A stretch of 64,000 nucleotides of DNA from Pelosinus propionicus DSM 13327 (GTDB lineage Bacteria > Bacillota > Negativicutes > DSM-13327). The position numbers and the translations under genes are program-made. The notes beneath the pieces are model-generated. The model made no database searches. It worked only from the letters and a program-made list of their open reading frames with translations, and had not been told where the DNA came from. This document shows positions 27,416 to 47,185 of the stretch, one piece after another. Positions within the stretch are counted from its first letter, which is position 1. Each line of letters begins with the position of its first letter. The DNA is taken from the NCBI RefSeq assembly GCF_900114615.1, contig NZ_FOTS01000029.1, forward strand, positions 1-64,000, read 5' to 3'.

Positions 27416-28957
27416 ATGCAAAATAAGCAAAATCAATTAATTTTAATTATGGACTTCGGTGGTCAGTATAGCCAGTTGATTGCCAGACGTATTCGTGAGT
27501 GCGGCGTGTACTGTGAAATTGTGTCATTTAAGACATCAATTGAAAAAATAAAATCTATGAGTCCAATTGGTATTGTTTTTTCTGGTGGCCCATCTAGTGT
27601 GTATGCAGATAAAGCGCCCAAGTGCGATCCAGAAATATTTACTTTAAACATTCCTATTTTTGGTATTTGTTATGGCATGCAGTTGACTGCGCATACTCTA
27701 GGAGGCGTAGTTTCTCATTCCGAATCGCGTGAGTATGGTAATACTCATTTGATTATTGACAAGAATACGGATATTTTTACTGAATTAGGCGCAGAAACAC
27801 CAGTATGGATGAGTCACGGAGATTATATCGAAACACCTCCAGCTAATTTTGTGGTTACAGCACATACTGCAAATACCCCAGTAGCAGCAATGGCGAATGC
27901 AGAGCGTAATATCTATGGAGTGCAATTCCATCCAGAAGTAGTACATACACCAGAAGGAATGAAAATGCTTCGCAACTTCTTGTTTGATATTTGTCAATGC
28001 CGTGGCGATTGGAATATGGGCTCTTTTGTTGATCAGGCAATTGAAGCCATCCGTAAGCAGGTTGGTAATAAACGTGTGCTTTGTGCCTTAAGTGGTGGTA
28101 TTGATTCTTCGGTAGCTGCTGTATTAGTGCATAGGGCTGTTGGTGATCAATTGACTTGTGTGTATGTTAACCATGGTTTTATGCGTAAAAATGAATCAGA
28201 ACAGGTAGTTAAAACTTTCCGCGATGGATTTAATATGAATTTGGTATATGCCAATGTTCCTGAGCGTTTTATGAATCGTATTGCCGGAGTCACGGAGCCG
28301 GAAGCAAAACGTAAAATAATTGGTGATGAATTTATTCGCGTATTTGAAACGGAAGCCAATAAATTAGGAGACATAGACTTTTTAGTACAGGGGACTTTGT
28401 ATCCTGATGTAATAGAAAGTGGTACGGATACAGCTGCTGTTATTAAAAGCCATCATAATGTAGGTGGCTTGCCGGAAGATATGAAGTTTGCCTTGGTGGA
28501 ACCATTACGTGATTTATTTAAAGATGAAGTTCGATCATTGGCTAGAGAATTGAATTTGCCAGAAGAAATTGTATGGCGTCAGCCTTTCCCTGGTCCTGGT
28601 CTTGCGATTCGGATTATCGGCGAGATTACAGAAGAACGGTTGGAAATCTTGCGGGACGCAGATGCAATTGTTCAAGAAGAGATTAAAAAGGCTGACATGT
28701 ATCGCAAGGTATGGCAATCCTTTGCTGTTTTGCCTGCCATGAAGAGTGTAGGTGTTATGGGGGATGAGCGTACCTATGCTTATACAGTCGGATTGCGCAT
28801 CGTGTCCAGTGAGGATGGTATGACAGCTGATTGGGTAAGAATGCCATATGAAGTATTAGATCAAATCTCTCGTCGTATTGTAAATGAAGTAAAAGGTGTA
28901 AATCGCATTGTGTATGATGTTACATCAAAACCGCCTTCTACAATTGAGTGGGAATAA
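27416..28957 (+). CDS. guaA: GMP synthase (glutamine-hydrolysing)
   Basis: GuaA aminates XMP to GMP with glutamine and ATP. The N-terminal class I amidotransferase domain has the nucleophile Cys in [10 protein letters not shown] and the His/Glu in [11 protein letters not shown]. The ATP pyrophosphatase domain has [16 protein letters not shown]. The C-terminal dimerisation domain ends with [17 protein letters not shown]. The 513 residues are standard. AGGAGG precedes the start. A Tn7-like element begins 6 bases after its stop, so its conserved 3' end is the likely attachment gene. Confidence 0.97.
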
Positions 28958-28963
28958 ATAATA

Positions 28964-29215
28964 TGTCGTGGGGCACTGCCATTTATTCGCCAAAGGGCCA
29001 AAGTGGCTAACCCGCCGACATAGACAAAAAGACCTTGCATAAAAGCTTTTAACGAAGCTAATGCAGGGTCTTTTTTTATCCTCAACCCGCGTAAATACAG
29101 GGATTTCTGCTTGCTGAAAGAGAGCGTTCACCATGGAGTGGCGGGCATAACTGGCAAAGCCAGAGAGAATAAAGAAAAATGCCCTTTGCAGAATAAACGG
29201 CAGTGCCCCGCGACA
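28964..29215. repeat. 35-bp imperfect inverted repeats bounding 252 bp
   Basis: Positions 28964-28998 (starting TGTCGTGGGGCACTGCC) match the reverse complement of 29181-29215 at 31 of 35 bases. No target duplication is visible at the edges. They may be transposase-binding sites of the Tn7-like end or the termini of a small non-autonomous element. Confidence 0.8.
29028..29077 (+). terminator. Terminator downstream of guaA, inside the repeat pair
   Basis: A 13-bp stem (29028-29040 with 29061-29073) has a second small stem in the loop and is followed by TTTTTTT. It lies inside the 252-bp segment, so it may be supplied by the mobile DNA. Confidence 0.85.
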
Positions 29216-29444
29216 TGGTGATATTTTCTTTTATGCTTTTTGGGAAAAAGCATAACGCTATGACTTTCATGAACATTGGCTTGAAACGCCCGTAACATGG
29301 GGTGGGAGAGCATATTCATGATTTTCTATTTCCCCAAAAATCTAATCTCAAATTCTCCTAAAATCGTCCATTTTCATTTTGGGAAGCGTTTTTGGGAAAA
29401 TGGAGTCAAGCAGCAGAGCGTTCTACACAAGGAGGTTTTGCAAG

Positions 29445-29792
29445 GTGAGGAAGAAAAATTTCAAGGGTCGTTGTGAGAAGCGTGTCATTGCCAAGTGCAG
29501 TGATGTATGCAGGACATACGATGCGATCCAGTACGCTTATGCGGATATTTTGCAAGCGAGTGCTGAAGTAAAGGAAATTAGATGCAATGTCCCGCTTGAT
29601 GGGCGGGACATTAGCGAATACACATCGGATTTTGTCTGCGTCAAGTCTGACAATGATTTGATGGTGCGTGAATGTGTATTTCGTAAGTTTCTGATGAAGC
29701 CGCTTACGGTCAAGCTGCTGGATGCTTCAAGGGAATACTGGTTAAAGCATGGGGTTACAGATTGGGGGCTAGTCATTGATGAAGAAAAATGA
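29445..29792 (+). CDS. tnsA: TnsA-like endonuclease subunit
   Basis: In Tn7, TnsA cuts the 5' strands at the transposon ends. This protein is only 115 residues, the N-terminal catalytic part. It keeps the family pattern AYADILQASAEVKEIRCNV, YTSDFVCVK (Asp) and RECVFRKFL (Glu and Lys), then LLDASREYWLKHGVTDWGLV. The Glu of the first helix and the Lys of the usual ExK are not in the canonical places. GTG 29445 follows AAGGAGG; an in-frame TTG at 29379 lacks a site. It overlaps tnsB by 14 bases. Confidence 0.7.
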   Translation: MRKKNFKGRCEKRVIAKCSDVCRTYDAIQYAYADILQASAEVKEIRCNVPLDGRDISEYTSDFVCVKSDNDLMVRECVFRKFLMKPLTVKLLDASREYWLKHGVTDWGLVIDEEK

Positions 29793-31605
29793 TTTGTTGA
29801 AGGACGATAATAATATTATTAGGGTTTTAGAGATACAGCCTGATAAAATCCTCATTATCGACTGCATCAAAAAGACTATGCCTGTATGGGTGGAATCTTC
29901 TGCTTTGGATTCCTTCTCCGGATGCACTGGTGAAGTGCTGAACGAGGCTACGAATTTTGCAGTTACTGTCATTGATGCTTTGGATGCTGACCAGAGAAAA
30001 GCAATGTATGACCGTTACACGTTGATTGCACCAATTCTCCCTTTTATCGCGGATGAAAGAATGCGTTCTAAAGTTATCGGTTCCACAGCTATAGAAAACA
30101 ACATATCAAAGCAAACCATTAGGATCTACTTATGCCTGTATCTGACCTATATGAATATAACCGTTCTTGCCTCAAGGAAGCGTCTGGATGGTGATGCAGA
30201 GCTCACACAAGATGAAAAAAACATACGATGGGCTTTGAATAAATTCTTCTATACCACGAAAAAGCAATCACTTATGACTGCTTATACCATGATGCTGAAA
30301 GAAAAATATTGTGACAGTATGGATGTTCTGGTAAATGGATACCCGTCTTTTTATCAATTTCGTTACTTCTACCGTAAAACAAAAAAGATGCAGAATTTCT
30401 ATATTTCCAGAGACGGATTGAAGAGTTACCAGAGAAACAACAGGCCTCTTATTGGCGAGGGAGTGCAGGAGTTTGCCCCTGCTATTGGCGTTGGTATGCT
30501 GGATTCTACTGTATGCGATATTTACCTCATTAATGATGCTGGCAATCTTGTGGGCAGGCCAATTTTGACTGCCTGTGTTGACGCTTATAGCGGCTTATGT
30601 TGTGGGTATATTTTATCATGGGTGGGCGGAGTATACAGTCTTAGAGGGTTGATGTTAAACATTATTGCGGATAAAGCTGCTTGGTGCAAAAAGTTTGGTA
30701 TTTTTATTAATACTGAGGATTGGTCTTGTGATAAAATTCCTGCTACTTTGGTCACGGATATGGGAAGTGAATACAAATCTGAAAACTTCGAGCAAATTGC
30801 AGAGCTGGGTGTTAAAGTAATCAATCTCCCTGCATATAGACCTGAATTGAAAGGTTTGGTGGAGAAATTCTTTGATGTGGTTCAGTCAACCTATAAAAAG
30901 CACCTGAAAGGCAAGGGTGTGATTGAGCTTGATTATCAGGAGCGGGGAGCGCATGATTACAGGAAAGATGCCTGCTTGACCATGGCGGACTTTGAGAAAA
31001 TTATCCTTCATTGTATCATTTATTACAACGCTCAACGGATAGTTGAGAATTTTCCCTATACCGAAATCCTGATTGCCGAGACTGTAAAACCCTATGCAAG
31101 CTGTATCTGGAATTGGGGTAAATCCCAAATGGGAGCCAATTTGATTGAAGTAGGTGCTGAAGAACTTATACTTACTCTATTGCCAAGAGCTATAGGGAGA
31201 TTCAGCAGGTTTGGTCTGAAAGTGAATAAAATGCGTTACCATCGTGACGGGTATACAGAGCAATATCTTAAAGGCGGTGAGGTTACAGTTGCTTATAATC
31301 CAGAGGACGTTACTTCTGTATGGCTGTTGGAAAATGGAATATATACCAAGTTTGCCATTATTGAATCCAGATTTGAGGGTAAAGATTTGACTGCTGTACA
31401 GAGTTTACAGACAGCTCAGAGAGACATTGTAAAAGGAGCCAACCAGGAAAATCTACAAGCTCAGATTAATCTTGTGCGGCATATTGAGGCAATCGCTGGC
31501 AGCGTCAGGAACAGTGCCGATGTAAGCGTTAAGAATATTCGAGATAACCGCAAGCGTGAACAGCTTAAACACCATAGAAATTATATGAAAGGAGTCAAGC
31601 CATGA
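29779..31605 (+). CDS. tnsB: TnsB-like DDE transposase
   Basis: This is the rve-family transposase that cuts and joins 3' ends. By eye the catalytic triad is D242 (VGMLDSTVCD), D327 (LVTDMGSEY) and E362 (KGLVEKFFD), with the usual 35-residue D-E spacing. N-terminal residues 75-230 carry DNA-binding helices (GSTAIENNISKQTIRIYL is a helix-turn-helix). The basic C-terminal tail probably contacts TnsC. The 608 residues are in the Tn7 TnsB range. It overlaps tnsA and tnsC (ATGA). Confidence 0.92.
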   Translation: MKKNDLLKDDNNIIRVLEIQPDKILIIDCIKKTMPVWVESSALDSFSGCTGEVLNEATNFAVTVIDALDADQRKAMYDRYTLIAPILPFIADERMRSKVIGSTAIENNISKQTIRIYLCLYLTYMNITVLASRKRLDGDAELTQDEKNIRWALNKFFYTTKKQSLMTAYTMMLKEKYCDSMDVLVNGYPSFYQFRYFYRKTKKMQNFYISRDGLKSYQRNNRPLIGEGVQEFAPAIGVGMLDSTVCDIYLINDAGNLVGRPILTACVDAYSGLCCGYILSWVGGVYSLRGLMLNIIADKAAWCKKFGIFINTEDWSCDKIPATLVTDMGSEYKSENFEQIAELGVKVINLPAYRPELKGLVEKFFDVVQSTYKKHLKGKGVIELDYQERGAHDYRKDACLTMADFEKIILHCIIYYNAQRIVENFPYTEILIAETVKPYASCIWNWGKSQMGANLIEVGAEELILTLLPRAIGRFSRFGLKVNKMRYHRDGYTEQYLKGGEVTVAYNPEDVTSVWLLENGIYTKFAIIESRFEGKDLTAVQSLQTAQRDIVKGANQENLQAQINLVRHIEAIAGSVRNSADVSVKNIRDNRKREQLKHHRNYMKGVKP

Positions 31606-32843
31606 AAAATCTTTCAGATATCATCAATGTTCTGCCTCGCATGAAGTCAGGGGATGATTTGATAGCCGCATTGGAAGTATTGCCGGAGTACAATCCTGAA
31701 ATCTGCAATACGGATGCTTCTGTAAGGCTTATGGCATTATCGGACTTATATAGGGTATATATCCCCTCGCAAATGTCGCTGGAGATTTATAGCAAATTGT
31801 ACTTGGCTCTTTTGCGTTCTATGCAGAAGAAGGGAACAAAGCTGGCAGTACAACAACAGAATCAAAACTACAGAGTTATCATGCAACAGGAATACAACGG
31901 CATCATGGGTGGATCGGATAGTTTTACCATTATCGGTGCATCTGGAATAGGTAAGAGTTCGGCTATTAGCAGAGCCATTAATTTGATTACGGAGAATCGG
32001 GTAATTGAAGCTGAGAATCCGTATACCAATGTTGTACCATGTGTGATTGTGCAATGCCCATTTGATTCGTCAGTAAAGGGCCTGTTACTGGAGATTTTGC
32101 GTAAAGTTGATGAGGTTTTAGACAGCAAATATTATCAAAATGCTTTAAGAGCAAGGGCTACAACAGATATGCTTATTGGTTCTGTCAGTCAGGTTGCTCT
32201 TAACCATATTGGTATGTTGGTGGTAGATGAAATCCAGAACGTAGCCAATAGTAAAAACGGTAAAAGCTTAATTGGGGCTTTGACACAGCTTATCAATAAT
32301 AGCGGAATTAGCATCTGTATGGTTGGCACTCCTGAAAGCAGCAGATTCTTTGAATCGGCGATGCAACTGGCACGACGTTCCGTGGGATTGCAGTATACGA
32401 CTATGAGCAACGACAAATATTTTCAAGAGTTCTGCAAGGTCATGTTCAGATATCAGTACGTGAAGCAAAAAACAGAAATTACGGATGGAATCCTTGCATG
32501 GCTTTATGAGCATAGCGCAGGAATTACATCGGTTGTGGTAGCGTTGATTCACGATGCACAGGAAATTGCAATTTTGAATGGCAAAGAAATTTTGAATCTG
32601 GAATCTTTAAACGAAGCATATCAGAAACGTTTATCGCTACTTCATGGCTATATTCAACCGTCTGTTTCACTAGGTAAGCAGACTTCTAAAATCAAGAGAA
32701 AAGCGATTGTCCATACTGCTGAGAATGAAACTTTAGATGATTGTGTTAGTATTGCTGATTTTGTTACTAAAGCCAAGAATGAAAATATAGATATTGTGCA
32801 GCTTTTAAAGTCGAATATGCCTGTTGTGGAGGTAGCTGTATGA
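31602..32843 (+). CDS. tnsC: TnsC-like AAA+ ATPase
   Basis: TnsC is the ATP-dependent regulator that links the target selector to the transposase. Walker A is GASGIGKS (112-119), Walker B is MLVVDEIQNV (D209, E210), and a sensor segment reads ICMVGTPESSRFF. The 413 residues are shorter than Tn7 TnsC, as in many Tn7-like elements. It overlaps both neighbours by 4 bases, so all four proteins are probably made in coupled fashion. Confidence 0.9.
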   Translation: MKNLSDIINVLPRMKSGDDLIAALEVLPEYNPEICNTDASVRLMALSDLYRVYIPSQMSLEIYSKLYLALLRSMQKKGTKLAVQQQNQNYRVIMQQEYNGIMGGSDSFTIIGASGIGKSSAISRAINLITENRVIEAENPYTNVVPCVIVQCPFDSSVKGLLLEILRKVDEVLDSKYYQNALRARATTDMLIGSVSQVALNHIGMLVVDEIQNVANSKNGKSLIGALTQLINNSGISICMVGTPESSRFFESAMQLARRSVGLQYTTMSNDKYFQEFCKVMFRYQYVKQKTEITDGILAWLYEHSAGITSVVVALIHDAQEIAILNGKEILNLESLNEAYQKRLSLLHGYIQPSVSLGKQTSKIKRKAIVHTAENETLDDCVSIADFVTKAKNENIDIVQLLKSNMPVVEVAV

Positions 32844-34303
32844 TCGCTTATTTCCCTACAGCATATCCAGATGAGTTGCTTTATAGCCAGCTGGCACGAT
32901 ATTATACGAAGTCAGGATATATGGCTTACAGCTTTGCGGCGGAAGACCTGTTTGCATCAAAGACGGTGCGCCCTGATATGGATTTTATTAATACTTACAC
33001 TCCTGCCGCACTACAGGCCATAACAAGAAATATGCCTATGGAAGCAGTCGTTGAAAAGCATACCATGTTTCCTTGCTATGGGCGTTTTTTGCCGAAAGAA
33101 CGCAGACAAAAAGCATTTCAATCATTGGTATCTATGATGGGAAATTACTATAATCTCTTGCCGATACCTCAAAGCAAGAATGGCAAAGTTCGCTGTTTGC
33201 GCTACTGTCCAGCTTGCGCAGCTAATGATAGAGAACAATATGGAGAAGCATATTGGCATCGGATTCATCAGCTAATAGGGATTCATGTTTGCCCAGTTCA
33301 TCGGTGTTACTTGATGGATAGCAGTGTGATAATTAGTGGGAAAGCTACGCCCTCTTTAAAAACAGCCGAGGAAATGATACCACAATCGGAATCATGCGCA
33401 TTTGCGGATAACGAAATTGAAATCCGCGTAGCCGTTTATTTGGCAGAGGTTTTTCAGGCTGATGTTGACATGGATTCATGTGTTACGGTTGGTGATTTTC
33501 TTCATTCCCAAATGGCTAATACCCAATATCGGTCTGTACGTGGAGAGCAGCGTAATATTGCACTCTTTCATGCAGATTTTACAGAGTATTATAGGAATTT
33601 GTCCCAAAACTGGTTTACGGAGTTATGGCAGACACAGAAGGTGTTGACGAATGATAGAGTGAACTTCTATGAAATCTGTCTCATGGCTATATTTCTTGGT
33701 ATTACTACTGATGAACTGGTACATATGGAACTGCCGGAGAAAACACAACAACAGCTTTTTGATGAAGAGGTTTACAGACTTCATGAACAGGGTTTAAAGT
33801 ATCCGGCTATTGCGAAAGCTCTCAGTGCCCCATATGCGACTGTTAAGGCTATCGGTGAACGGAGGTATGGAACTTATCATAAGCCAACTAAAGCGTCACT
33901 TAAAAGCGGCGTAAAACCTCAAAACTGGAATCAGATTGATGAAGATACACTATCATTTGTAAAGGCAACTATCAGCCAGCTACAGGGTGATGGAACAACC
34001 AGACCTAAAAAGGTTACTACTTTTGCTGTTGAGAAAATCTTGCATCTTTCTAGTAAGAAAATATCTTTGTATTTGCCCAAATGCCTTGCTGAAATACAGC
34101 GGCATAAGGAATCACGAGAGCAATATTGGGCTAGAGAAGTAGCTTGGGCTGCGCGTCAGATAAAAGATAGTGGTATCACTTTGACATGGCGCAAGGTACG
34201 GGATTTAACGAATATGCGCCGTAGAGATTTTGAAGCTTGTCTGCCGTATATCCCTGATTATGCAGATAGTGAGCTTGCTGAACAGATAATACACCTGCTA
34301 TAA
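32840..34303 (+). CDS. tniQ: TniQ/TnsD-family target selector
   Basis: This protein recognises the attachment site in Tn7-like elements. The N-terminal TniQ domain has YPDELLYSQLARYY and the zinc finger C123-x2-C126 with C151-P-x-H154 (RYCPACA, VCPVHRC). The C-terminal half (about 300-487) has helix-turn-helix-like segments (GLKYPAIAKALSAPYATVKAI) that would read target DNA, as in TnsD. At 487 residues it is TnsD-sized rather than a short CRISPR-type TniQ. Its probable target is the end of guaA. Confidence 0.88.
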   Translation: MIAYFPTAYPDELLYSQLARYYTKSGYMAYSFAAEDLFASKTVRPDMDFINTYTPAALQAITRNMPMEAVVEKHTMFPCYGRFLPKERRQKAFQSLVSMMGNYYNLLPIPQSKNGKVRCLRYCPACAANDREQYGEAYWHRIHQLIGIHVCPVHRCYLMDSSVIISGKATPSLKTAEEMIPQSESCAFADNEIEIRVAVYLAEVFQADVDMDSCVTVGDFLHSQMANTQYRSVRGEQRNIALFHADFTEYYRNLSQNWFTELWQTQKVLTNDRVNFYEICLMAIFLGITTDELVHMELPEKTQQQLFDEEVYRLHEQGLKYPAIAKALSAPYATVKAIGERRYGTYHKPTKASLKSGVKPQNWNQIDEDTLSFVKATISQLQGDGTTRPKKVTTFAVEKILHLSSKKISLYLPKCLAEIQRHKESREQYWAREVAWAARQIKDSGITLTWRKVRDLTNMRRRDFEACLPYIPDYADSELAEQIIHLL

Positions 34304-34418
34304 ATTAGTCAATGATTGTATAAGAATGGTGAACGTATTAAAAATTTCTTATTGAATAGATGGTAAAAATAAGCCGTACAAACGGAGCATTCACGTAAGC
34401 CCCATTATCAAAATAATA

Positions 34419-34472: not shown

Positions 34473-35205
34473 CTACAAAGGCATAATTAAATTCTGGCTG
34501 CCTATCAGTAGAATGAAGCACAGTCTTCCAAATTTACGCTCAAGACCACATATGCAGCTTTCGTAATAATTTGGTGGTTTTCTCGGTTTTTTATAGTGTA
34601 TGGCATCCAAAAAGATAAAGGGGTATACTGCTTCCGTTAAGCTGAGGCATGATTTTTTCACTGATTTTCTTACTAACTATGGCGAGATTTCCACGTCATA
34701 CAAGCTCTTTATCTGATCTGATATATCCCGAATACTAAGTCCCGTTGCATACAGGAATAAAATTTTTTCTTCCATGCCATCGGTATTTCGGCTATATTTA
34801 TCGATGATTTTAGGCTCAAACTCACCATTACGATCATGGGGAACAGCTATTTCTGCTTCATCCAACTGTGTTTTAACTGCCTTTTTTGAGTAGCCATTCC
34901 GGTAATTTTTCGACACAGGTAAATTGACATCTTCCGACTGTCGTTCTTGTTTTTCGTATCCCAGCTCAGCATCTAATTCTGCCTCCATGATCTCCTGAAG
35001 CACATCCCGGAACATGTCTTTGATTGCATTATAACTTCCGTAGTATTGCTTAACCTTTCCTCTTTGCCTGGCTCTCTGATGACTTCATTAGGGATTGTTT
35101 TCATAAACAATCTTCCTTACTGGCTCAAATAGTTTTATTCCTATTCTTGCCAGTAAGGAAGTTGCTTCAAACCTATTTACACAAAATTTTCTGCACCCTC
35201 CAAGA
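34473..35205 (-). mobile_element. Decayed IS256-family insertion sequence
   Basis: On the minus strand, 35072-34677 encodes an IS256-type transposase N-terminus (LQEIMEAELDAELGYEKQ, SKNYRNGYSKKAV, GLSIRDISDQIK). Frame is lost after EISP. The piece VYPFIFLDAIHYK (34661-34473), which holds a catalytic Asp, continues in another frame with a deletion, and the rest is gone. A terminal-repeat-like sequence typical of the family (rc of 35176-35205, GGTGCAGAAAATTTTGTGTA) marks the 5' end; the other end is missing. A GCCAGTAAGGAAG hairpin near 35110-35162 may block incoming transcription. Confidence 0.8.
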
Positions 35206-35218: not shown

Positions 35219-35983
35219 TCACACACTCACCAGGGGATTGATTCTTCCAGTAGACTCAGACGGAACCGTCTCATCCGATTCTCTAATTGCATTTTCTACA
35301 GCCTGAATATGATCACGCATGCTTGATGATGCCAAATCTGCATTTTTCCCCTTTATCGCATTGAATATTCTCCTATGATATTCATTGACAAGCTCAGGCA
35401 TATTGTTGACAACCGAGGATTTATTCTGATGTACGGCTAGCGCATTTCGAATTGAAGCTATAAACGCAAGAACAATTTTATTATTAGATGCCTTGGCAAT
35501 GCATACATGGAATTTATAATCCAGATGATTTAATTCATCCCGTATATCGTTAGAAAAAACCTTGTTCTCAGACACTATCCTTTCTCTTTCCATGAGGATA
35601 CTATCCATTTCTATCAGATCTTTATCAGAAGCTACGAGAGATGCTAATTTTGCAGCTTCTGCTTCCAATACCTTTCTGACCTGTATCAGGTCATATATAA
35701 GTTCTTCATTTATAACCATAAGATATTGCAAAATAGAACTCAAAAATTCGTCATCATAATTGTTTACATAAGTTCCGCCGCCATGCTTTATAGTTAAGAG
35801 GCCAAGATGTGAAAGGGATTTAAGGGCTTCTCTTAAAGGTGGTCTGCTTACGCCCAGTGTTTCGGAAAGCTGCCTTTCATTCGGGAGTTTATCCCCAGGT
35901 ATTAATTTTCGATCCTTTATTTCATTAAAAAGATAATCAAATATTTGTTGACTGACATATTTTTTCTCTATCATATAAATCAT
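35219..35983 (-). CDS. FadR-type GntR transcriptional regulator
   Basis: An N-terminal winged helix (about residues 5-75, GDKLPNERQLSETLGVSRPPLREALKSL) precedes an all-helical FCD effector domain (about 90-235) with metal-ligand residues in ELNHLDYKFHVCIAKASNN and HRRIFNAIKGKN...HI. FCD regulators usually sense sugar acids or small organic acids. It is read divergently from the ulaG-type gene, so it likely controls the catabolic cluster through the inverted repeat at 36210. The 254 residues are typical. Confidence 0.9.
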   Translation of the reverse strand: MIYMIEKKYVSQQIFDYLFNEIKDRKLIPGDKLPNERQLSETLGVSRPPLREALKSLSHLGLLTIKHGGGTYVNNYDDEFLSSILQYLMVINEELIYDLIQVRKVLEAEAAKLASLVASDKDLIEMDSILMERERIVSENKVFSNDIRDELNHLDYKFHVCIAKASNNKIVLAFIASIRNALAVHQNKSSVVNNMPELVNEYHRRIFNAIKGKNADLASSSMRDHIQAVENAIRESDETVPSESTGRINPLVSV

Positions 35984-36185
35984 CCTGTTTTTATAGTAAG
36001 AATATCATAAATTTAGGAAAGGTGCAAATTGAATAGAACTTATTTTTGCGGTATAAAAAAATTCTACTGCGAAACACATTGCTAGGCCTTACTTGTACTT
36101 AAACAGACGAGTTTATCTGTCACCATTTTGCCGTGGATTATACTACAAAATAATAAAACAGAATTATAAATCAATTCAAAAAAAA

Positions 36186-36250
36186 TTGACAAATTGACGA
36201 AAATATTATACCATAGTGGCAAATAGGTATTACCAATTTGCCACTATGGT
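36186..36250 (+). promoter_or_regulatory. Promoter with overlapping 15-bp inverted repeat
   Basis: TTGACA (36186-36191), 17 bases, then TACCAT (36209-36214). A perfect inverted repeat, ACCATAGTGGCAAAT and its complement (36210-36224, 36236-36250) with an 11-base gap, covers the -10 region. It looks like the operator of the divergent FadR-type regulator. A T-rich run follows, so an attenuator is also possible. Confidence 0.65.
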
Positions 36251-36329
36251 TTTGTGTTTAATGGTTTTCAATGTTTTATCTGGTTCTTCCATAAAGAACT
36301 AGTGTATAAAAAATAAGGAGATGATTATC

Positions 36330-37412
36330 ATGATTAACGATGTAAACATCAAGGATCTAGACAGACAGAAATGGATTAACAATGTATTTCCGGAATGGGG
36401 CACGTTCTTAAATGAAGAAATTGACAATACGGTTGTCGAAGAAAACAAGTTTAAAATGTGGTGGCTGGGCTGTACAGGAATCTGGGTAAAAACGCCAGCT
36501 GACTGCAATATTATTATAGACCTCTGGCTTGATACAGGGAAACAGACCAGAAAATTCCCAGCTCCACCTGCATGGGGCCAGGGGAAAGATTTTCAAATGG
36601 CCAGAATGATGGGGAGTAAGCAGTGGCAGCCAAATGCCCGGTCTGCTCCGATGGTCATTGATCCTTTTGCAATTACTAAAATGGATGCCGTCTTATCAAC
36701 TCATTTCCACCGCGACCATATCGATCCTTATGTAGCAGCGGCAATTGTAGCCAATACTGATGCACCCTTTATCGGTCCCAAATACAGTGCCGATATGTGG
36801 AGAAAGTGGGGGGTTCCCGAAGAAAGAATTACAGTAGTCAAACCTGGTGACAGTGTAAAAATCAAAGATGTTGAAATTGTTGCTGTAGATTCCTTTGACA
36901 GGACGGCGTTGATTACGGCACCTCCTGCAGGAGATATTCGGGGAATATGCCCAAGCGATATGGACGACAGGGCTGTTAATTTTATTATCAAGACACCAGG
37001 CGGCAATTTATATCATAGCGGTGACTCGCATTTCTCAAATTACTTTGTAAAGCATGGTAAAGAATACGACATTGACGTAGTTTTAGTGTCATATGGCGAA
37101 AATCCAATTGGCTGTTCTGACAAGGTTACGTCAGTTGACTGCTGTAGAATTGCAGAAAATCTCAGAGCCAAAGTTTTGATTCCCTTCCACTATGATATTT
37201 GGTCAAATATGCTGGCTGATCCAAAGGAAATTGAATTAGTTTATAACTATAGAAAAGACAGACTGAACTATAAATTTAACGTGTTCCTGTGGGAAGTTGG
37301 AGGGGGATATTTATTCCCGGACGACAAGGGCAAGAAAAGATTTATGTTTGAACGTGGCTTTTCGGATGCATTTGAAGAAGAACCGAATATTCCGTTCAAA
37401 TCATTTTTATAA
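36330..37412 (+). CDS. ulaG: UlaG-type L-ascorbate-6-phosphate lactonase
   Basis: This metallo-beta-lactamase-fold hydrolase opens L-ascorbate 6-phosphate or a related lactone. It is highly similar to E. coli UlaG along its length: FPEWGTFLNEEI, MWWLGCTGIWVKT, GPKYSADMWRKWGVP, DSFDRTALIT, PGGNLYHSGDSHFSNY and the C-terminal PFKSFL. Metal ligands H125, H127, D129 and H130 (STHFHRDHID) are present. ATG 36330 lies 10 bases after AAGGAG; ATG 36321 is too close. The 360 residues match. It is the first gene of the cluster. The true substrate is uncertain because no ascorbate PTS is here. Confidence 0.88.
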   Translation: MINDVNIKDLDRQKWINNVFPEWGTFLNEEIDNTVVEENKFKMWWLGCTGIWVKTPADCNIIIDLWLDTGKQTRKFPAPPAWGQGKDFQMARMMGSKQWQPNARSAPMVIDPFAITKMDAVLSTHFHRDHIDPYVAAAIVANTDAPFIGPKYSADMWRKWGVPEERITVVKPGDSVKIKDVEIVAVDSFDRTALITAPPAGDIRGICPSDMDDRAVNFIIKTPGGNLYHSGDSHFSNYFVKHGKEYDIDVVLVSYGENPIGCSDKVTSVDCCRIAENLRAKVLIPFHYDIWSNMLADPKEIELVYNYRKDRLNYKFNVFLWEVGGGYLFPDDKGKKRFMFERGFSDAFEEEPNIPFKSFL

Positions 37413-37473
37413 AATAGCCTATTAATTAACATTCCTCATGGGTATGGGGCGGTCTGACTCGGCTGCGCAAGGG

Positions 37474-37510
37474 ATTTTGAGTGAGAAGACAATTCACTGG
37501 ATTGAATTGT
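37474..37510 (+). terminator. Hairpin between ulaG and the MFS gene
   Basis: AAGACAATTCA pairs with TGAATTGTCTT around a 6-base loop, with flanking GAG/CTC pairs. The T-run is broken (TTTCTTGCTC), so it may weaken rather than stop readthrough. Confidence 0.5.
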
Positions 37511-37690
37511 CTTTCTTGCTCAGTCCTGCAAAGGCGTCATGATTTTGTTACAAGCGAACTTCAAGGAGAATCACTGAATCCCGCTGTCTGTACGAAACTT
37601 ATTGTATCCTATGCCTTTTTCGACGAGAAGATTTATGTGGTTATTTGTCGAGCTAAGCGAAAATTTATTGGCGAGGGAGAATATATATAT

Positions 37691-39055
37691 ATGTCGGCAA
37701 TTGGTAATGAGATGAAAATAAAGAATAATTATTTTGATGGCTTAGAGGTTACCAAGAAACAGATTTGTTTATTTATTGTTGTTATTGCATCTTATTTTTT
37801 TGAAAACTTAGATAATAATAGCTTTAATTTTTGTGCTCCAGCTATTATGGCTTCGATGAATATCGGTACCGCTGGTTTAGCCCAAATAACTTCAGCTTAC
37901 TATTTGGGCAATACATTTGGAGCTATTTTTGGTGGGATAATCTCCGATATTATCGGAAGACGTAAAACTTTATTAATTAGTACTTTCTTATTCACGACCG
38001 GCACTATAGTAGATGCTGCAACTACGGATTTTACGACATTTCTCGTTGCGAGAGCCCTAACGGGTTTTGGAATTCTTTGTATGATGGTTGTGACTATTAC
38101 GTATATGGCTGAAATGTCCCCCAAGGAAAGCAGAGGCAAATGGGAAGGGTATATAGGCGGGTTCGGATATTTAGCTGCTCCTGCAATTGGATTTATATCT
38201 GGAGCTATAGTGCCATTGCACCCGGAAGCTTGGCGAAATGTTTTTTATATAGGCGGCATTGGTTATATATTATTAATAGTAAGTTATTTTACAATAAAAG
38301 AATCGCCGCGTTGGCTTATGAGTAGAGGAAGACAAGCAGAGGCAGAGGACGTTGTCTCTAGTCTTGTCGGAATGCCTATAGATCTCAGTGATGCAGTTAT
38401 TGTTAAAAAATCTCGTAGTAATTTAGCTAAAGACGTTCAAAAGATGTTTTCCCCATTATACTTAAAGAGGACAATTGTTCTTTTCCTCATTTTATGTGGA
38501 GGTGTTGTCAGCTTTAATTCAACCCAACCGTGGATGACAACACTGCTTAAGATGAACGGATTTAGTATGCAAGATAGTATCTTTATTTCAACAATATTTA
38601 CTTTTGGTTTTCCGCTTGGACAGTTTGTTGCAGCTTATTTTGCCGACAGGGGCGGAAGAAAAATTCCTATTGCTGTCTTTGGAATTCTATACTGTGTTGT
38701 AACGATACCATTTGTATTATTTATTAAAGACAACGTCATTTTGGCGGCTATATTAGGCCTTTTAGTTATTGCTATTGGGATAGCTAGAAATTTTATTATT
38801 CATCCTTATGTTGCGGAATCGTTACCGACTAGTCAAAGAAATTCAGTAACGGGGATATTAAATGGAGCTTCACGTTTTGCGTCTACCGGAGCTCAGCCTT
38901 TAGTTCCGATACTTTTTGCAGCATATGGAACTATGGGGGTTTTCGGCTTTGCCATGGGTTTTTCTATCTTAACTTCTATTATAGCGATTTTCTTCGGTTG
39001 GCGGACTGCATGTAAATCTTTGGAGGAATTGAACGAAAATATCTCCCAAGAGTAG
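37691..39055 (+). CDS. MFS sugar-porter-type transporter
   Basis: This membrane protein of 454 residues has 12 predicted helices. The cytoplasmic loop motif DIIGRRKT, the ARALTGFGILCM helix and the central ESPRWLMSRGR are typical of the sugar porter/organic-acid branch of the major facilitator superfamily. ATG 37691 follows GGCGAGGGAG; a longer frame from 37481 has no membrane character and covers a hairpin. It probably imports the cluster's substrate or an intermediate by proton symport. The specificity cannot be read from sequence. Confidence 0.85.
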   Translation: MSAIGNEMKIKNNYFDGLEVTKKQICLFIVVIASYFFENLDNNSFNFCAPAIMASMNIGTAGLAQITSAYYLGNTFGAIFGGIISDIIGRRKTLLISTFLFTTGTIVDAATTDFTTFLVARALTGFGILCMMVVTITYMAEMSPKESRGKWEGYIGGFGYLAAPAIGFISGAIVPLHPEAWRNVFYIGGIGYILLIVSYFTIKESPRWLMSRGRQAEAEDVVSSLVGMPIDLSDAVIVKKSRSNLAKDVQKMFSPLYLKRTIVLFLILCGGVVSFNSTQPWMTTLLKMNGFSMQDSIFISTIFTFGFPLGQFVAAYFADRGGRKIPIAVFGILYCVVTIPFVLFIKDNVILAAILGLLVIAIGIARNFIIHPYVAESLPTSQRNSVTGILNGASRFASTGAQPLVPILFAAYGTMGVFGFAMGFSILTSIIAIFFGWRTACKSLEELNENISQE

Positions 39056-39162
39056 TTTGATAAATAGAGACCTTAGTATTGTAATATGGATAATGGAGGG
39101 AAATGTTACTTTTAGTCTTTTTGTATAAGTAAAGTACAAAACTGGAAAGGTTGTGTGATAAA

Positions 39163-39861
39163 TTGACTTTGAAAGCGATTAAAAAGGAAGTTTATGAAGC
39201 CAATTTGGAGCTTGTAAACAGAAAACTAGTAATCTACACTTGGGGAAATGTCAGTGCTATCGACAGAGTGAACAATCTGGTGGTCATCAAGCCCAGAGGG
39301 ATTGAGTACGAGGATCTCTGCGCCGAAGATATGTCGGTTGTGGACATGGAAGGAAATCTGGTTGAGGGCAGACTATTACCTTCGGTTGATCTGGACATTC
39401 ACCTTGAGATATATAAAAATTTAGAGTCGGTAGGGGGTATCGCCCATACTCATTCAACCTGGGCAACCGCATGGTGCCAATGTGGAAGGGGGATTCCCGT
39501 TTACGGAACCACTCATGCAGATCATTTCTATGGTGAAATTCCATGCACCCGCCAGCTAACTAAAGAAGAAGTCAAGGGCGAATATGAAAGAAATCTGGGG
39601 CGTATCATCTGCGATTTATTTAAAGGACGCGATCCTCTTGCAATGGGAGCTGTTCTGACGGCTGGTCATGGTCCGTTTACCTGGGGCAAGGATGCAAAGG
39701 CTGCCGTTGAGCACAGCGTGATACTTGAGGAACTTGCAAAAATGGCTAAGCTTTCTCTTGATATTGCCGGAGGTAATTGCCCGCTTTTACCGGATTTTAT
39801 GACAGAGAAACATTACACCAGGAAATACGGCGCAAATTCGTATTTCTATCAGAGTAAGTAG
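39163..39861 (+). CDS. ulaF: L-ribulose-5-phosphate 4-epimerase (UlaF/AraD type)
   Basis: This class II aldolase-fold, zinc-dependent epimerase converts L-ribulose 5-phosphate to D-xylulose 5-phosphate. TWGNVSAIDR, VIKPRGIEY, the zinc ligands in IAHTHSTWATAW and THADHFYGEIPCTR, and LTAGHGPFTWG match AraD/UlaF/SgbE closely. TTG 39163 is preferred (12 bases after GGAAAGG); a TTG at 39151 is immediately next to the site. Its product would be a transketolase substrate, which links it to the split transketolase downstream. Confidence 0.9.
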   Translation: MTLKAIKKEVYEANLELVNRKLVIYTWGNVSAIDRVNNLVVIKPRGIEYEDLCAEDMSVVDMEGNLVEGRLLPSVDLDIHLEIYKNLESVGGIAHTHSTWATAWCQCGRGIPVYGTTHADHFYGEIPCTRQLTKEEVKGEYERNLGRIICDLFKGRDPLAMGAVLTAGHGPFTWGKDAKAAVEHSVILEELAKMAKLSLDIAGGNCPLLPDFMTEKHYTRKYGANSYFYQSK

Positions 39862-39872
39862 GAGGAATTTAT

Positions 39873-40685
39873 ATGAAGACCTCCGTTTCGCTTTCACTGT
39901 TTAATGCTGACAAAACCGCTCCTGTGCTCTTTTCGGGGGATATTGAAACAAATATTCCCTATATCAGCTCAATCGGTTATGCTGGTGTGGATTTGTTTGT
40001 TTTAGACCCTCTAGCAGACATTAGCAAAAGGGCATTGAGGCTTCTGGCTGACAATAATCTAGGTGTAGGTGTCGTTATGCCGGCTGCACTGGCAAAAAAG
40101 CAATTGTTTATGGGTGACGTTGATAGCGGTGTTAGAAAGGAAATTATTAGAAGACTGAAGGAAATTATTGCGTTTTCAGCAGAAGCGGGGGCTATGGTTT
40201 CTTTAGGCCTTGTGCGGGGAAGCGTTAAGGGTAACGATAGCTATGAAGCATTCTTTCAACGTTTTGCCGATACTTGTGAAAAATTAATTCCTTTTGCAGA
40301 GCAACACGGTGTCAAACTTCTGATTGAACCCATCAACCGTTATGAAATAAATACACTAAATTCTAGCCAAGAGGCCTTTGAGTTCATACAGAAATTCAAT
40401 CTTCCTTTATTTTTGATGCTGGATACTTTTCATATGAATATTGAAGATGTGTCCATAGAGGAAAGCTTTGTCCATTGTCAACAGCTTGTCAGACATATAC
40501 ATTTTCTTGATTCGAACAGAAGGGCACCCGGGATGGGACATCTAGAAATGACAAAAATATATGAATTGCTCAAACAACTAAATTATGACGGCTATCTGTG
40601 TCTTGAAGCACTTTCGTTGCCGGACAGCAAAACCTGTGCATTAAAGGGTATAGAGTTTTTTGCAAAAATAGGATTATGTGGGTGA
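39873..40685 (+). CDS. Sugar-phosphate isomerase/epimerase, UlaE-like
   Basis: This is an AP-endonuclease-2/xylose-isomerase-like TIM barrel of 270 residues. Metal-site residues are visible in LLIEPINRYE (Glu), MLDTFHMNIED (Asp, His), HIHFLDSNRRAPGMGH and CLEALSLPD (final Glu). UlaE-type enzymes epimerise L-xylulose 5-phosphate at C3; relatives include tagatose epimerases, hydroxypyruvate isomerases and oxo-isoapionate decarboxylases. Context beside ulaF favours an UlaE role, but not firmly. It starts 11 bases after ulaF. Confidence 0.8.
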   Translation: MKTSVSLSLFNADKTAPVLFSGDIETNIPYISSIGYAGVDLFVLDPLADISKRALRLLADNNLGVGVVMPAALAKKQLFMGDVDSGVRKEIIRRLKEIIAFSAEAGAMVSLGLVRGSVKGNDSYEAFFQRFADTCEKLIPFAEQHGVKLLIEPINRYEINTLNSSQEAFEFIQKFNLPLFLMLDTFHMNIEDVSIEESFVHCQQLVRHIHFLDSNRRAPGMGHLEMTKIYELLKQLNYDGYLCLEALSLPDSKTCALKGIEFFAKIGLCG

Positions 40686-40715
40686 AGTTATGAATACAAG
40701 GAGTTGGATAAAGGA

Positions 40716-41735
40716 ATGAAAATAAAAAAAGATATTCTCTGTCAAATTGATAAAGTGTATGCGACATGCATTAGCGAGCATAATGAAGAGCTTATCCTAA
40801 TCGGCGCTTCGGAAGGTGAAGGTGAAAGCCGAGCCTTTATTGGTGACAAAAATACTGTCATGTGGGAAAAGCCTGGCGGGACAATGAATGTGGTGCCTGT
40901 ACCGGGTAAAGAAAATGAGTTCTTTGCAACTTTGAAATTCCTGCCGGTATTTGCAGCCCAGGATTGTACGCTAAATTACGTTCGATTAAAGGACGGCAAC
41001 TGGCAAGTAACAGAAATAATGAAGTTTCCATATCTCCACAGGTTTGATTTGTTCGAAAAAAATGGCCGGATATATTTAGTGGGAGCGACTCTGTGTGAAT
41101 TAAAAGAGTTCCAGCAAGACTGGAGCAAACCTGGGGCTGTATTTGTCGGAGAGCTCGAAAGCGATTTAACTCTTCCAATTAATATAAAAACAATATATAA
41201 GGGTATAACAAAGAATCACGGATTATGCCGTGTGAAAAACTGGCATGAGGGAGATGCTTATCTGGTGACTGGTGTTGAAGGTGTATTTTCTTTGCGTATT
41301 CCTGAAAATCCCTTTACAGACAAGTGGGAGATTAATAGGCTAATGGATAATGAAGTAAGTGACATTGCCGCTGTGGATATAGACAATGATGGAGTTCTGG
41401 AACTGGCAACAATTGAACCCTTTCATGGGAACAAGTGTGTAATCTACAAAAAGGAAGAACATGGATATAAGCCCATAAAAGACTATGATATCGAGTTCGG
41501 ACATGTGATTTGGGGCGGCGATGTTGCAGGGATGCCAGTTTTTCTGCTGGGATACAGGAAAGAGAAGATGGAGCTTTTGGCAATCGGAAAGGACGGTAAT
41601 GATTTTAAGACTACATTAATAGATCAGAATGTCGGACCGAGTCAAATATCTGTATTGAATAAGGATCAGAAAACATATATTTTGTCAGCCAACAGACAAA
41701 TAGACGAACTGGCCTTATATACTGTCAGCAAATAA
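40716..41735 (+). CDS. Unassigned beta-propeller-like protein with FG-GAP/VCBS motif
   Basis: This protein of 340 residues has no signal peptide or membrane segment. It is built of repeating beta-rich units, each about 45-50 residues (for example GRIYLVGATL and DAYLVTGVEGVFSL). One calcium-type loop, AAVDIDNDGVLELATIEP, resembles FG-GAP/VCBS propeller blades. I do not recognise a named family. It sits between sugar isomerase and transporter genes, so a lactonase-like, mutarotase-like or sensory role is possible but unproved. ATG 40716 lies after AAGGAG and was chosen over TTG 40704. Confidence 0.65.
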   Translation: MKIKKDILCQIDKVYATCISEHNEELILIGASEGEGESRAFIGDKNTVMWEKPGGTMNVVPVPGKENEFFATLKFLPVFAAQDCTLNYVRLKDGNWQVTEIMKFPYLHRFDLFEKNGRIYLVGATLCELKEFQQDWSKPGAVFVGELESDLTLPINIKTIYKGITKNHGLCRVKNWHEGDAYLVTGVEGVFSLRIPENPFTDKWEINRLMDNEVSDIAAVDIDNDGVLELATIEPFHGNKCVIYKKEEHGYKPIKDYDIEFGHVIWGGDVAGMPVFLLGYRKEKMELLAIGKDGNDFKTTLIDQNVGPSQISVLNKDQKTYILSANRQIDELALYTVSK

Positions 41736-41882
41736 ATAATTGATTGGGAAGCTTTCATAGTTGTGCTGAATACACAACACTTATTTTGAGTTGAAGGAAA
41801 AATCGAGTAATCAAAAAAACGATGCTGAAGTTACTGCTAATTTTAAGATAGGGTGGCAAATGAAAGATGGGAGAGGATTTAA

Positions 41883-43193
41883 TTGACGACAAGTACTACT
41901 GACGCTATGTTGACAAAACGATCGACCAAGCAAAGATGGATAATCGCCGGAATTTTGATGATTATAATGTTTTTTTCTTTTATTGACCGTGTAAATATTT
42001 CTATTTTGATAGCTGACAAAGAATTTATTAAGGCCATGGGGATTCAGGGGCAGGCAATACAAATGGGGATGCTGATGAGCTCCTTTTTGTTGGCATATGG
42101 CATCGGAAATATTATTCTAAGTCCGTTAGGGGATATAATCGGTCCACGTAAGTCAATGTTAATTGCTGTAGTATTTTGGGCGGCTGCGATGAGCCTTGGG
42201 GGGATAGCGCAGACTTTTGCAATGATGATTGTCGCGCGGGTAACACTTGGGATATTTGAAGGACTGCACTTTCCCATGCAGAGTACGTTTGTAAAAAATT
42301 GGTTTCCTCCGAAGGAAAGAGGAAGGGCCAATGCTATTGTTGTGTTAGGTATATCTGTCGCTCCGGCTGTTGCTATGCCATTTCTTGCCTGGCTTGTCCA
42401 TTTTGCAGGTTGGCGCGATAGTTTCTTCGTATTAACTGTACTAGGGTTGATTCCCCTACTTTTATTATGGTTTTGGACTACTGACAGGCCAAGCCAAAAT
42501 AAGAGAGTAAACGAACTGGAACTGAAACATATTGAAGATGGGATTGCGGAAGAGGCGAAGGTGCAATCACCGGAAAGCACGCAAAGTACAGAAAAGGAAA
42601 CGTTTTGGATTAGGTTTCAATCGTTTTCGTCCGATTACCGGTTTTGGATTATGGTAGTCTATTTTTCAGTGCACAGTTCGGTATTTTGGGGATCAATGAC
42701 CTGGTTGCCGAGCTATCTTAAAGACGCGCGAGGTTTTTCATGGGAGGCCATGGGGATATTGTCGTCTTTGCCGTGGATTGTATCGATTCTCTCAAAGATT
42801 TTTTCAGGGGTTCTTTGCGATAAGTTAGGGCCTGGCCGCAGAGCGCGCGTTCTTGTCATTGCGATGACCTTCATGTCACTTGGAACGTATTTTGGCGCTA
42901 AGGCCACTGAACCACTTGTGGCAGCAATTCTCCTAGGGATAGGGATGGGGGCGATAGGCATGAGCGGGCCTGCTTCATGGACGATACTGCAGGATATCGT
43001 TCCTAGTAAAGGAGTTTCTACTGCAAGCGGGATAGTGAACGGTATCTCCAATGGAGTGGCTGCCTTGGCTCCATTGATGGTGGGATGGTTTATCAGTAAT
43101 ACGGGTAGCTATGACGGTGGCCTGTTTTTCTTAGTAGCCACCAGTATAGTAGGTGGATTGCTCGCACTGGTTTTGTCAGTGAAGAAAAATTGA
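41883..43193 (+). CDS. MFS transporter, anion:cation symporter family
   Basis: This second transporter has 12 predicted helices. FFSFIDRVNISILI at helix 1, SPLGDIIGPRKSML between helices 2 and 3, and GRANAIVVLGISVAPAVAMP are typical of the ACS family (GudP, DgoT, phthalate permease), which imports sugar acids and other organic anions with H+ or Na+. The start is TTG 41883, after GAGAGG. The 436 residues are usual. It suggests that the cluster's substrate is a hexonate-like acid. Confidence 0.85.
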   Translation: MTTSTTDAMLTKRSTKQRWIIAGILMIIMFFSFIDRVNISILIADKEFIKAMGIQGQAIQMGMLMSSFLLAYGIGNIILSPLGDIIGPRKSMLIAVVFWAAAMSLGGIAQTFAMMIVARVTLGIFEGLHFPMQSTFVKNWFPPKERGRANAIVVLGISVAPAVAMPFLAWLVHFAGWRDSFFVLTVLGLIPLLLLWFWTTDRPSQNKRVNELELKHIEDGIAEEAKVQSPESTQSTEKETFWIRFQSFSSDYRFWIMVVYFSVHSSVFWGSMTWLPSYLKDARGFSWEAMGILSSLPWIVSILSKIFSGVLCDKLGPGRRARVLVIAMTFMSLGTYFGAKATEPLVAAILLGIGMGAIGMSGPASWTILQDIVPSKGVSTASGIVNGISNGVAALAPLMVGWFISNTGSYDGGLFFLVATSIVGGLLALVLSVKKN

Positions 43194-43291
43194 CTTTATT
43201 GGCCAATAAATCCTACCACTATGTGGGAATTTCATTGGTGAAAAACTTGTCTGATGTATTCAACTTTAAAAAAATTTGGAGGTATATCAAA

Positions 43292-44263
43292 ATGGTTAAA
43301 CCGAAAGTTTATGTTACAAGGCTATTACTTGAAGACTCTCTAGCTTTGCTGAAGGAACGCTGCGAAGTTGAAATGAATCCTGGCTTTAAAATTTTGCCAA
43401 AAAAGGAATTCCTAGAAAAAGTCCGCGACAAAGATGCTATTCTAGTGTCGCATACTCCTATTGATGCTGAAATCTGTGAGGCCATCAAATCACACTGCAA
43501 AATATTGGCTACTAATGGTGTCGGCTACAATAATGTTGATGTAGAGGCTGCCACAAAATGTGGGATTTGGGTCACCAACAATCCGGAGGCCGTGAAGGGT
43601 TCAACGGCTGATTTCACTTGGGCGCTTATCCTTTCTACGGCCAGGCGTATTGTTGAGTGTGACCAATTCGTACGCGCGGGACGAAAAGACTGGGGGCCGC
43701 TAAATCTGCTCGGAGCGCAAGTTAGCGAGAAAACGATTGGAATCATTGGTGCCGGGCGTGTAGGGACGGCGGTCGGGAAAAGGGCTGTGGGGTTTGATGT
43801 GGAGATTTTATATACTGATGTAGCGCCTAGTGCTACTTTTGAAGCGGCCACAAATGGGCGGTATGTAGATATGGAAACTCTGCTAAAGAATGCTGATTTC
43901 GTCACACTGCATGTCCCCTCGCTTCCTTCTACCCATCATCTTATTGGGCGCGAAGAGCTAAATATGATGAAACCAACAGCTATCTTGATAAACGTTGCAA
44001 GAGGCGATGTTGTTGATGAAGCAGCATTGCTTGAGGCTCTACGTGATGGTACTATAGCAGGGGCTGGCCTCGATGTCTTTGAAAGGGAACCGGAAATTAC
44101 ACCAGGATTAGCGGAACTTCCTAATGTCGTGCTGGCCCCACACGTGGCGACAGCAACAAAGTATACCAGGATAAAACAGGGTGAGGCTAGTGCACGAAAT
44201 ATCTTTGCTGCGTTGGACGGCAAGATACCGGCCAATTGTCTGAATCCCGAGGCTAAAGGCTAA
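43292..44263 (+). CDS. D-2-hydroxyacid dehydrogenase (glyoxylate/hydroxypyruvate reductase type)
   Basis: This NAD(P)-dependent dehydrogenase of 323 residues has the Rossmann motif IGIIGAGRVGTAVGKRA, the catalytic Arg in LINVARGDVVDE, Glu in GLDVFEREPEI and His in VLAPHVATAT. It resembles GhrB/TkrA 2-keto-gluconate and hydroxypyruvate reductases. ATG 43292 follows GGAGG; an ATG-less longer frame from 43190 was rejected. Next to an ACS-type transporter it may reduce a 2-keto sugar acid. The direction and substrate are inferred. Confidence 0.87.
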   Translation: MVKPKVYVTRLLLEDSLALLKERCEVEMNPGFKILPKKEFLEKVRDKDAILVSHTPIDAEICEAIKSHCKILATNGVGYNNVDVEAATKCGIWVTNNPEAVKGSTADFTWALILSTARRIVECDQFVRAGRKDWGPLNLLGAQVSEKTIGIIGAGRVGTAVGKRAVGFDVEILYTDVAPSATFEAATNGRYVDMETLLKNADFVTLHVPSLPSTHHLIGREELNMMKPTAILINVARGDVVDEAALLEALRDGTIAGAGLDVFEREPEITPGLAELPNVVLAPHVATATKYTRIKQGEASARNIFAALDGKIPANCLNPEAKG

Positions 44264-44381
44264 TTGCTCCGGTGAGTATTTGCAGTCGCAAATGGAAATA
44301 GGAAAAATAGCTTGCATGGCTATTGCTAATACAGGAGGATCAAATAAACTGAATTTAAGCTATAAAAGGAGTAAACGTGAA

Positions 44382-45230
44382 ATGGATAAACAAGAAATAC
44401 AGGAATTAGAAAAAATAGCAGCTAAGATACGATGGCACACGGTACATTCCATATTTAGCGCCGGATCAGGACATCCCGGCGGAGCGTTATCGATAGCTGA
44501 TATTCTTGCCACATTATATTTCGATATTATGAAAATAAATCCGCTGCAGCCCAAATGGTCGGAACGAGATCGATTGGTTCTATCAAAGGGACATGCGGCA
44601 CCTTCCTATTACGCAGCACTTGCACTAAGGGGATACTTTCCAGTAGATGACATGGTTACTTTGAGAAATTTTGATAGTTACCTTCAAGGGCATCCTGATA
44701 TGAAAAAAATTCCGGGTGTAGATATGTCAACAGGTTCATTAGGACAAGGGTTGTCAGTTGCAAATGGGATGGCTCTTGTAAGTAAATTTGATGGCAGTGG
44801 ATTTCGGGTTTTTGCTATGTTAGGCGATGGAGAAATTGAAGAGGGACAGATTTGGGAAGCAGCTATGACGGCTTCGCATTATAAATTAGGAAATTTGACA
44901 GCATTTCTTGATTGCAATGGTTTACAAATTGATGGCAAAGTGACCGACGTCATGTCGCCGTTGCCGCTGAAAGAAAAATTTCAAGCGTTCGGCTGGGCAG
45001 TAACTGAAATTGATGGTCACTCGATTGAGGCTATTAAAAATGCTGCTGATTGGGCACAGACGATACCAGAACAACCAAAGCTAATTATTTGCCGGACAAT
45101 AAAGGGGAAAGGCGTATCCTTTATGGAGAATCAGGCAGGTTGGCATGGGGCTGCTCCGAACCAGGAACAATGGCAAGTCGCTCAAAATGAATTGAATCAA
45201 GTTCTTTTGTCGTTGGGGGTGAAACAGTAA
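44382..45230 (+). CDS. Transketolase, N-terminal subunit
   Basis: This is the thiamine-diphosphate-binding half of a split transketolase (282 residues). SAGSGHPGGALSIAD, LSKGHAAPSYYAAL, MSTGSLGQGLSVANG and the metal/ThDP motif GDGEIEEGQIWEA are present. ATG 44382 follows AAAGGAG; the longer frame from 44280 was rejected. Split transketolases are frequent in carbohydrate clusters, for instance in apiose or sulfosugar use, and act on specialised ketose phosphates. It shares one base with the C-terminal subunit gene. Confidence 0.92.
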   Translation: MDKQEIQELEKIAAKIRWHTVHSIFSAGSGHPGGALSIADILATLYFDIMKINPLQPKWSERDRLVLSKGHAAPSYYAALALRGYFPVDDMVTLRNFDSYLQGHPDMKKIPGVDMSTGSLGQGLSVANGMALVSKFDGSGFRVFAMLGDGEIEEGQIWEAAMTASHYKLGNLTAFLDCNGLQIDGKVTDVMSPLPLKEKFQAFGWAVTEIDGHSIEAIKNAADWAQTIPEQPKLIICRTIKGKGVSFMENQAGWHGAAPNQEQWQVAQNELNQVLLSLGVKQ

Positions 45231-47147: not shown

Positions 47148-47185
47148 TGAGAGCACATTATATAAGTAGGAGAGGAGTACAAAAA

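Follow-up and report, generated by a model that had tools for sequence, protein, structure and literature searches.

A Tn7-like element behind guaA with directly repeated 252-bp ends and its possible integration by cointegrate formation

Several described systems are close to the locus considered here. Tn7 (tnsABCD) inserts at attTn7/glmS and has unequal L and R ends. IS26-type translocatable units, also called pseudo-compound transposons, integrate as a circle with one short transposon, and the ends of the inserted DNA are then flanked by direct copies of that transposon. The short unit of IS26 itself encodes the transposase, and a target selector is absent. In Tn7-like elements, transposition becomes replicative and yields cointegrates when TnsA does not cut (PMC8649781); a statement in PMC11406308, which cites May and Craig 1996, also connects this lack of cutting with cointegrates. 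The gene guaA is a known site of integrase-type islands (PMC8239412).

In the current work we describe a Tn7-like element of Pelosinus propionicus DSM 13327. The window, i.e., the whole stretch of DNA that was analyzed, comprises 64,000 nucleotides of contig NZ_FOTS01000029.1, designated C47 below.

The tns operon, the terminal modules, and the cargo

The gene guaA (GMP synthase; 27416..28957, forward strand; NCBIfam PRK00074, E 1.7e-248) is followed at its 3' side by an intact tnsA-tnsB-tnsC-tniQ operon on the same strand, with head-to-tail overlaps. The gene tnsA (29445..29792) has a GTG start codon preceded by AAGGAGG and encodes a protein of 115 aa with an N-terminal endonuclease domain only. 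It is followed by tnsB (29776..31605), encoding a DDE transposase, tnsC (31602..32843), encoding an AAA+ ATPase (Pfam TniB, 9e-15), and tniQ (32840..34303), encoding a TnsD-like target selector of the guaA type (Pfam TniQ, 1.7e-21). The gene calls and the Pfam and NCBIfam matches bear out the initial annotation, which had proposed such an operon adjoining guaA. It had also regarded TniQ as TnsD-like, and the predicted fold of TniQ indeed matches Tn7 TnsD(1-318) (8glu; Z 17.0, rmsd 3.6, 261 residues); the best rows other than TnsD/TniQ reached only Z 7-8. The catalytic D-D-E residues of TnsB align with D273, D361, and E396 of Tn7 and are invariant across the family. The element has a D-D-E TnsB, a TnsC/TniB, and a TniQ/TnsD together with a 5-bp target duplication, TGT...ACA ends, and insertion at a fixed distance, all of which are characteristic of Tn7-like elements. 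The window proteins that were scanned include no Cas effector.

The element starts at 28964, as had been annotated initially, 6 bp past the guaA stop codon and directly after the left copy of the target duplication TAATA (28959..28963). Its left end is a module of 252 bp (28964..29215, forward strand) that has the structure of a complete mini-transposon, TGTCG...CGACA, with 36-bp inverted arms of 89% complementarity. The outer arm (28964..28998, forward strand), which begins with TGTCGTGGGGCACTGCC, is the terminus of the element. The inner inverted arm (29181..29215, reverse strand), which closes with GGCAGTGCCCCGCGACA, faces the element interior. The module contains a strong terminator-like hairpin, AAAAAGACCTTGCAT...ATGCAGGGTCTTTTTTT (29026..29078), and folds far better than shuffled sequences (z -7.7); a search of Rfam gave no RNA family in the module region. 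The conserved start of the backbone, TGGTGATATTTTC (29216..29228, forward strand), adjoins the left module without a target duplication.

The right boundary had been placed at the end of tniQ (34303); this has to be corrected, because the true right end is at position 13783 of another contig of the same genome, C32, on the minus strand. A terminator-like sequence at about 34.4 kb had also been considered as the right flank and was dropped when the duplication and the terminator were found on C32. The only other module copy in the genome (C32:13783-14034) is identical to the left one at 252 of 252 positions and directly oriented with respect to it. On the element strand, the right end reads GGATACTA, the module, the right copy of TAATA, and the guaA terminator. 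The region that lies 3' of guaA in the related genome G007 is found on C32 as well, at least 1.5 kb beyond the right end. C47 and C32 are physically separate in the assembly, and we infer that they are joined, which would give the element a length of no less than 40 kb.

Downstream of tniQ, a short stretch (34304..34344, forward strand) is conserved in most guaA elements, and the cargo diverges beyond it. A fragment of an IS256-family transposase gene (34677..35015, reverse strand) lies within the island. The presumed cargo (35219..63908) includes genes for a GntR regulator, an UlaG-like lactonase, aldolases, a split transketolase, a Lar-like protein, MFS transporters, a chromate transporter pair, and DctP, among others. 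Judging by the flanks, the whole region of 35-65 kb would be element cargo. Its stretch at 52.5-56.2 kb matches same-genus genomes through repeated chemoreceptor-type sequence only. A 29-nt inverted repeat with 83% complementarity (36201-36259), located 5' of the lactonase gene, may be the operator for the divergently encoded GntR regulator. Just inside the right end on C32 (L074:14121-17072), there are a DEAD/ResIII helicase gene and then a nuclease-like gene, possibly defense cargo; the contig breaks at the start of an IS21-like istA.

The direct-repeat module design recurs in Negativicutes and Clostridia, down to about 50% TnsB identity, in elements of, e.g., 47 kb (S. ovata), 33 kb (G332), and 17 kb (G070). 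Matching 5-bp outer duplications were found in these three (AAAGA, ATAAG, and TTAAA, respectively), in G074 (CAAAT), and in the distant G396 (CGTAG), where the right module is identical over the 77 bases present; in G067 the duplications match in 4 of 5 bases. The left inner border is constant, TGGTGATA, and so is the right one, ATACTA or ATACCA and mostly GGATACTA; neither has a duplication. In each of the seven simple elements, the two modules match one another best (92-100%) over loops as well as arms, in the manner of LTRs. The exceptions are G332, G071, G025, and G329; G025 and G329 have extra modules and look like arrays.

In G329 the order is guaA-AAAGA-[module]-AAAGA-[module]-TTAAAT-[element]-AAAGA, i.e., solo modules flanked by AAAGA are located at guaA, and a partial solo module was found in G044. 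An intact element at guaA is accompanied in G004 by the right end of a second, decayed element, with CAATA at both outer borders, and G068 has two tandem elements separated by 4 bp. These arrays and solo modules are consistent with recurrent insertion at a single site and with loss via recombination between modules.

Integration of a single-module circle and alternative explanations

The TnsA protein alone has no Pfam match at 1e-3; its family matches PF08722 (best E 2.3e-5). A profile search against PDB sequences gave chance matches only, and therefore a fold search was used. The predicted fold is similar to the N-terminal domain of Tn7 TnsA (1t0f; Z 13.2, rmsd 2.5, 113 residues), and there is no C-terminal domain. 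Active Tn7 TnsA is characterized by E63, D114, Q130, and K132. In the alignment with the Tn7 TnsA of plasmid R721, an Asp that is invariant in the family occupies the position of D114, and a Gln that of E63. In this low-identity alignment, the counterpart of K132 is Arg or Val, depending on where the gaps are placed, and none of the 11 members aligned has a Lys there. Judging by the alignment, TnsA appears to be devoid of the catalytic lysine and one glutamate, and its invariant D62 and E76 could provide some activity. The dN/dS of tnsA is 0.06-0.14 in the intact elements compared, which indicates purifying selection; therefore, the gene is maintained.

We consider it probable that the element integrates as a circle with a single module, through replicative (cointegrate) transposition. 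The transposing unit would be the 252-bp module, with the tns genes and the cargo as the backbone of the donor circle. TniQ would bind the guaA 3' end and act with TnsC to guide TnsB, so that the module enters 6-7 bp beyond the stop codon of guaA and 5 bp of the target are duplicated. With a TnsA presumably devoid of the residues for the second-strand cut, the donor would not be released, and replication through 252 bp would fuse the whole circle into the chromosome as guaA-TSD-[module]-tnsABC-tniQ-cargo-[module]-TSD. The circle could then leave again by recombination between the identical modules, with a solo module remaining as the scar. If a circle donates a short module by replicative transposition, the backbone is expected to come to lie between two direct copies that are identical at birth, with the duplication outside only. 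This would account for the direct repeat, the LTR-like identity of modules, the solo modules, and the decay of TnsA.

Some observations weigh against this explanation. The left and right modules of G332 and G071 are not sisters, which may be due to arrays and recombination. Every insertion into a site-specific array gives the same duplication, and matching duplications are thus compatible with more than one event. Neither a single-module circle in the plasmid or phage records searched for the module nor its junction in the element loci examined was found. The search of viral contigs gave a 35-kb contig, IMGVR 2891278109_000005, that starts and ends inside the module, as a circle and an assembly break alike would.

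In general terms, we lean slightly towards a Tn7-like family that lives by cointegration, with an impaired TnsA, a replicative non-coding module of about 250 bp, a circle integrated at guaA or ppdK, and recombinational release. By a similarly narrow preference, the life cycle of such a cointegrating family would be integrase-like and would depend on a DDE transposase directed to its target by TniQ.

The main rival explanation is cut-and-paste transposition combined with gene conversion. A conventional Tn7-like transposon at guaA, with the outermost arms as its true ends, seems to us unlikely. We are just as doubtful of a regulatory role for the inner arms and loops (TnsB autoregulation, transcription insulation), with the modules equalized by gene conversion, a process that could keep modules alike. 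The presence of tnsA and the purifying selection on it are what such a transposon predicts; the strong hairpin with a terminator suits a regulatory module, and the outer arms are mutual inverted repeats, as in Tn7. However, cut-and-paste transposition has no need for direct-repeat ends with their loops, TnsA is apparently without two catalytic residues, and there are solo modules flanked by duplications. Distinct L and R ends are expected of a cut-and-paste Tn7, whereas the two ends in the genome under study are 100% identical direct repeats.

Quite improbable, in our view, is a MITE-like module that inserts itself at guaA via TnsABCQ acting in trans, with islands formed, like composite transposons, where its copies came to lie on both sides of unrelated DNA. 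The solo modules behind guaA in G329, together with the partial one in G044, and the presence of both ends in each module agree with this possibility, but the inner borders (TGGTGATA and ATACYA) are constant across genera and have no target duplication. For this reason we treat the modules as belonging to the element itself; on the same grounds we rejected a separate MITE that had inserted next to an otherwise normal element.

guaA and ppdK as attachment genes

The left ends of 15 out of 16 guaA-linked elements are located 6-7 bp beyond the guaA stop codon. This count comprises 12 of 13 elements measured together and three (G332, L016, and G178, the last with its end at 7 bp) read from flanks; it leaves out L020, L024, L028, L032, L117, and L154, where TGTC positions are due to chance (contigs cut in the module, or a neighboring match). 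The exception is G071 (L088, L077, L150), with a left end 109 bp past guaA, beyond the native terminator. The native terminator occurs again after the right end of this element, which is on another contig, probably as a result of an array or a rearrangement. In two distant Clostridia (L049, L051) the ends are about 7-8 bp past the stop codon. The hosts of guaA elements include Sporomusa, Pelosinus, Pectinatus, Propionispira, and Megamonas.

Genomes of the same genus that have no element have an empty guaA site. When both flanks of the element under study are joined with one TAATA, they align through the guaA terminator with the empty sites of G001 and G003, which confirms that the element ends beside guaA. 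Further insertions at the same distance are present as the arrays of G004 and G329. Just upstream of guaA in the window (23484-27360) there are mqnE-mqnA-mqnC-like menaquinone futalosine genes and a futalosine hydrolase-like gene.

A sister clade of elements is located at the 3' end of ppdK, with TnsB about 74% and TniQ about 30% identical to those of the window. There are 35-37 bp between the conserved 3'-terminal codons of ppdK and the ends of these elements. A natural hybrid, L021, has a TnsB 91.6% identical to that of a ppdK element and is located at guaA; its TniQ shares 67.7% identity with that of the window but only 33% with that of the same ppdK element. Thus the type of TniQ correlates with the target gene. 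TniQ of the guaA type has an additional helix-turn-helix stretch (approximately residues 303-343, with a weak HTH match), which is absent from the ppdK type.

Several details of these loci may be mentioned. About 1.2 kb of extra sequence, possibly an intron or an insertion sequence, separates tnsB and tnsC in L021 (11813-12984). In L036 (5440-5492) and L045 (3580-3624) elements of the ppdK type adjoin an orphan ppdK 3' end of about 35-40 bp, the rest of the gene being absent; such copies may mark the minimal attachment site. Tandem ppdK-type elements have only TGGT between modules (L033:8955-9482 / L107:343-870).

The fixed 6-7 bp spacing, the empty sites in relatives, and the correlation of TniQ with the target support the earlier proposal that guaA is the attachment gene, and from sequence comparison the guaA 3' end is a probable recognition site of TniQ. 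As for relatives of the operon at unrelated sites, elements with the same TniQ type are located at guaA, and those located at ppdK carry another TniQ (about 30% identity). Vertical inheritance or chance, in place of TniQ-directed targeting, is hardly credible as the cause of the location next to guaA: the operon is at guaA in many related Negativicutes, but the empty sites within the genus contradict this explanation. The fixed spacing, the ppdK clade, and the TniQ hybrid at guaA also speak against it, as does the window TnsB, which is 90% identical to that of S. ovata (GuaA 80%) and 89% to that of a same-genus genome (GuaA 96-99%). Such equal closeness of TnsB to both suggests horizontal spread.

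The initial annotation suggested that guaA may be a new target. In the main text of the open-access papers searched, neither guaA nor ppdK is named as the site of a Tn7-like element. A term search of two broad surveys gave no guaA target and no such terminal direct repeats, and the text of the one survey searched for dikinase gave no mention of a dikinase target. Provisionally, therefore, guaA and ppdK are novel target genes of Tn7-like elements.

Comparison with described systems

Relative to the literature searched, guaA and ppdK are two attachment genes added for Tn7-like elements, and a natural series of TniQ swaps is available for the study of target recognition. If the cointegrate reading is true, a fusion product usually regarded as harmful would be a regular route of integration, and large circular DNA would be placed at a defined site by a cis element of 250 bp.

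The locus had been described as arranged exactly as Tn7. This holds for the gene order tnsA-tnsB-tnsC-tniQ and for tnsA being nearest to the 3' end of the conserved gene, as well as for the 5-bp duplication, the TGT...ACA ends, the TnsD-like fold of TniQ, and the fold of the TnsA N-domain. It does not hold for the ends, which are directly repeated 252-bp mini-transposons, unlike the unequal L and R ends of Tn7. The target is guaA, and TnsA has no C-terminal domain and apparently not the two catalytic residues.

The element probably resembles Tn5053/Tn402 and type V-K CASTs in that TnsA activity is absent or predicted to be absent and a cointegrate is expected. Unlike in those systems, the cointegrate-like structure is the standing genomic form here, the tns genes are outside the presumed transposing unit, and tnsA is kept. 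The proposed integration of a circle with one short unit would be like that of IS26-type units, but the unit described here has no coding sequence and a constant target site. Finally, the Tn6591/GIsul2 islands share the same chromosomal gene as the site of integration, but they were described with int, attL, and attR, and not with TnsABC/TniQ and 5-bp duplications (PMC8239412).
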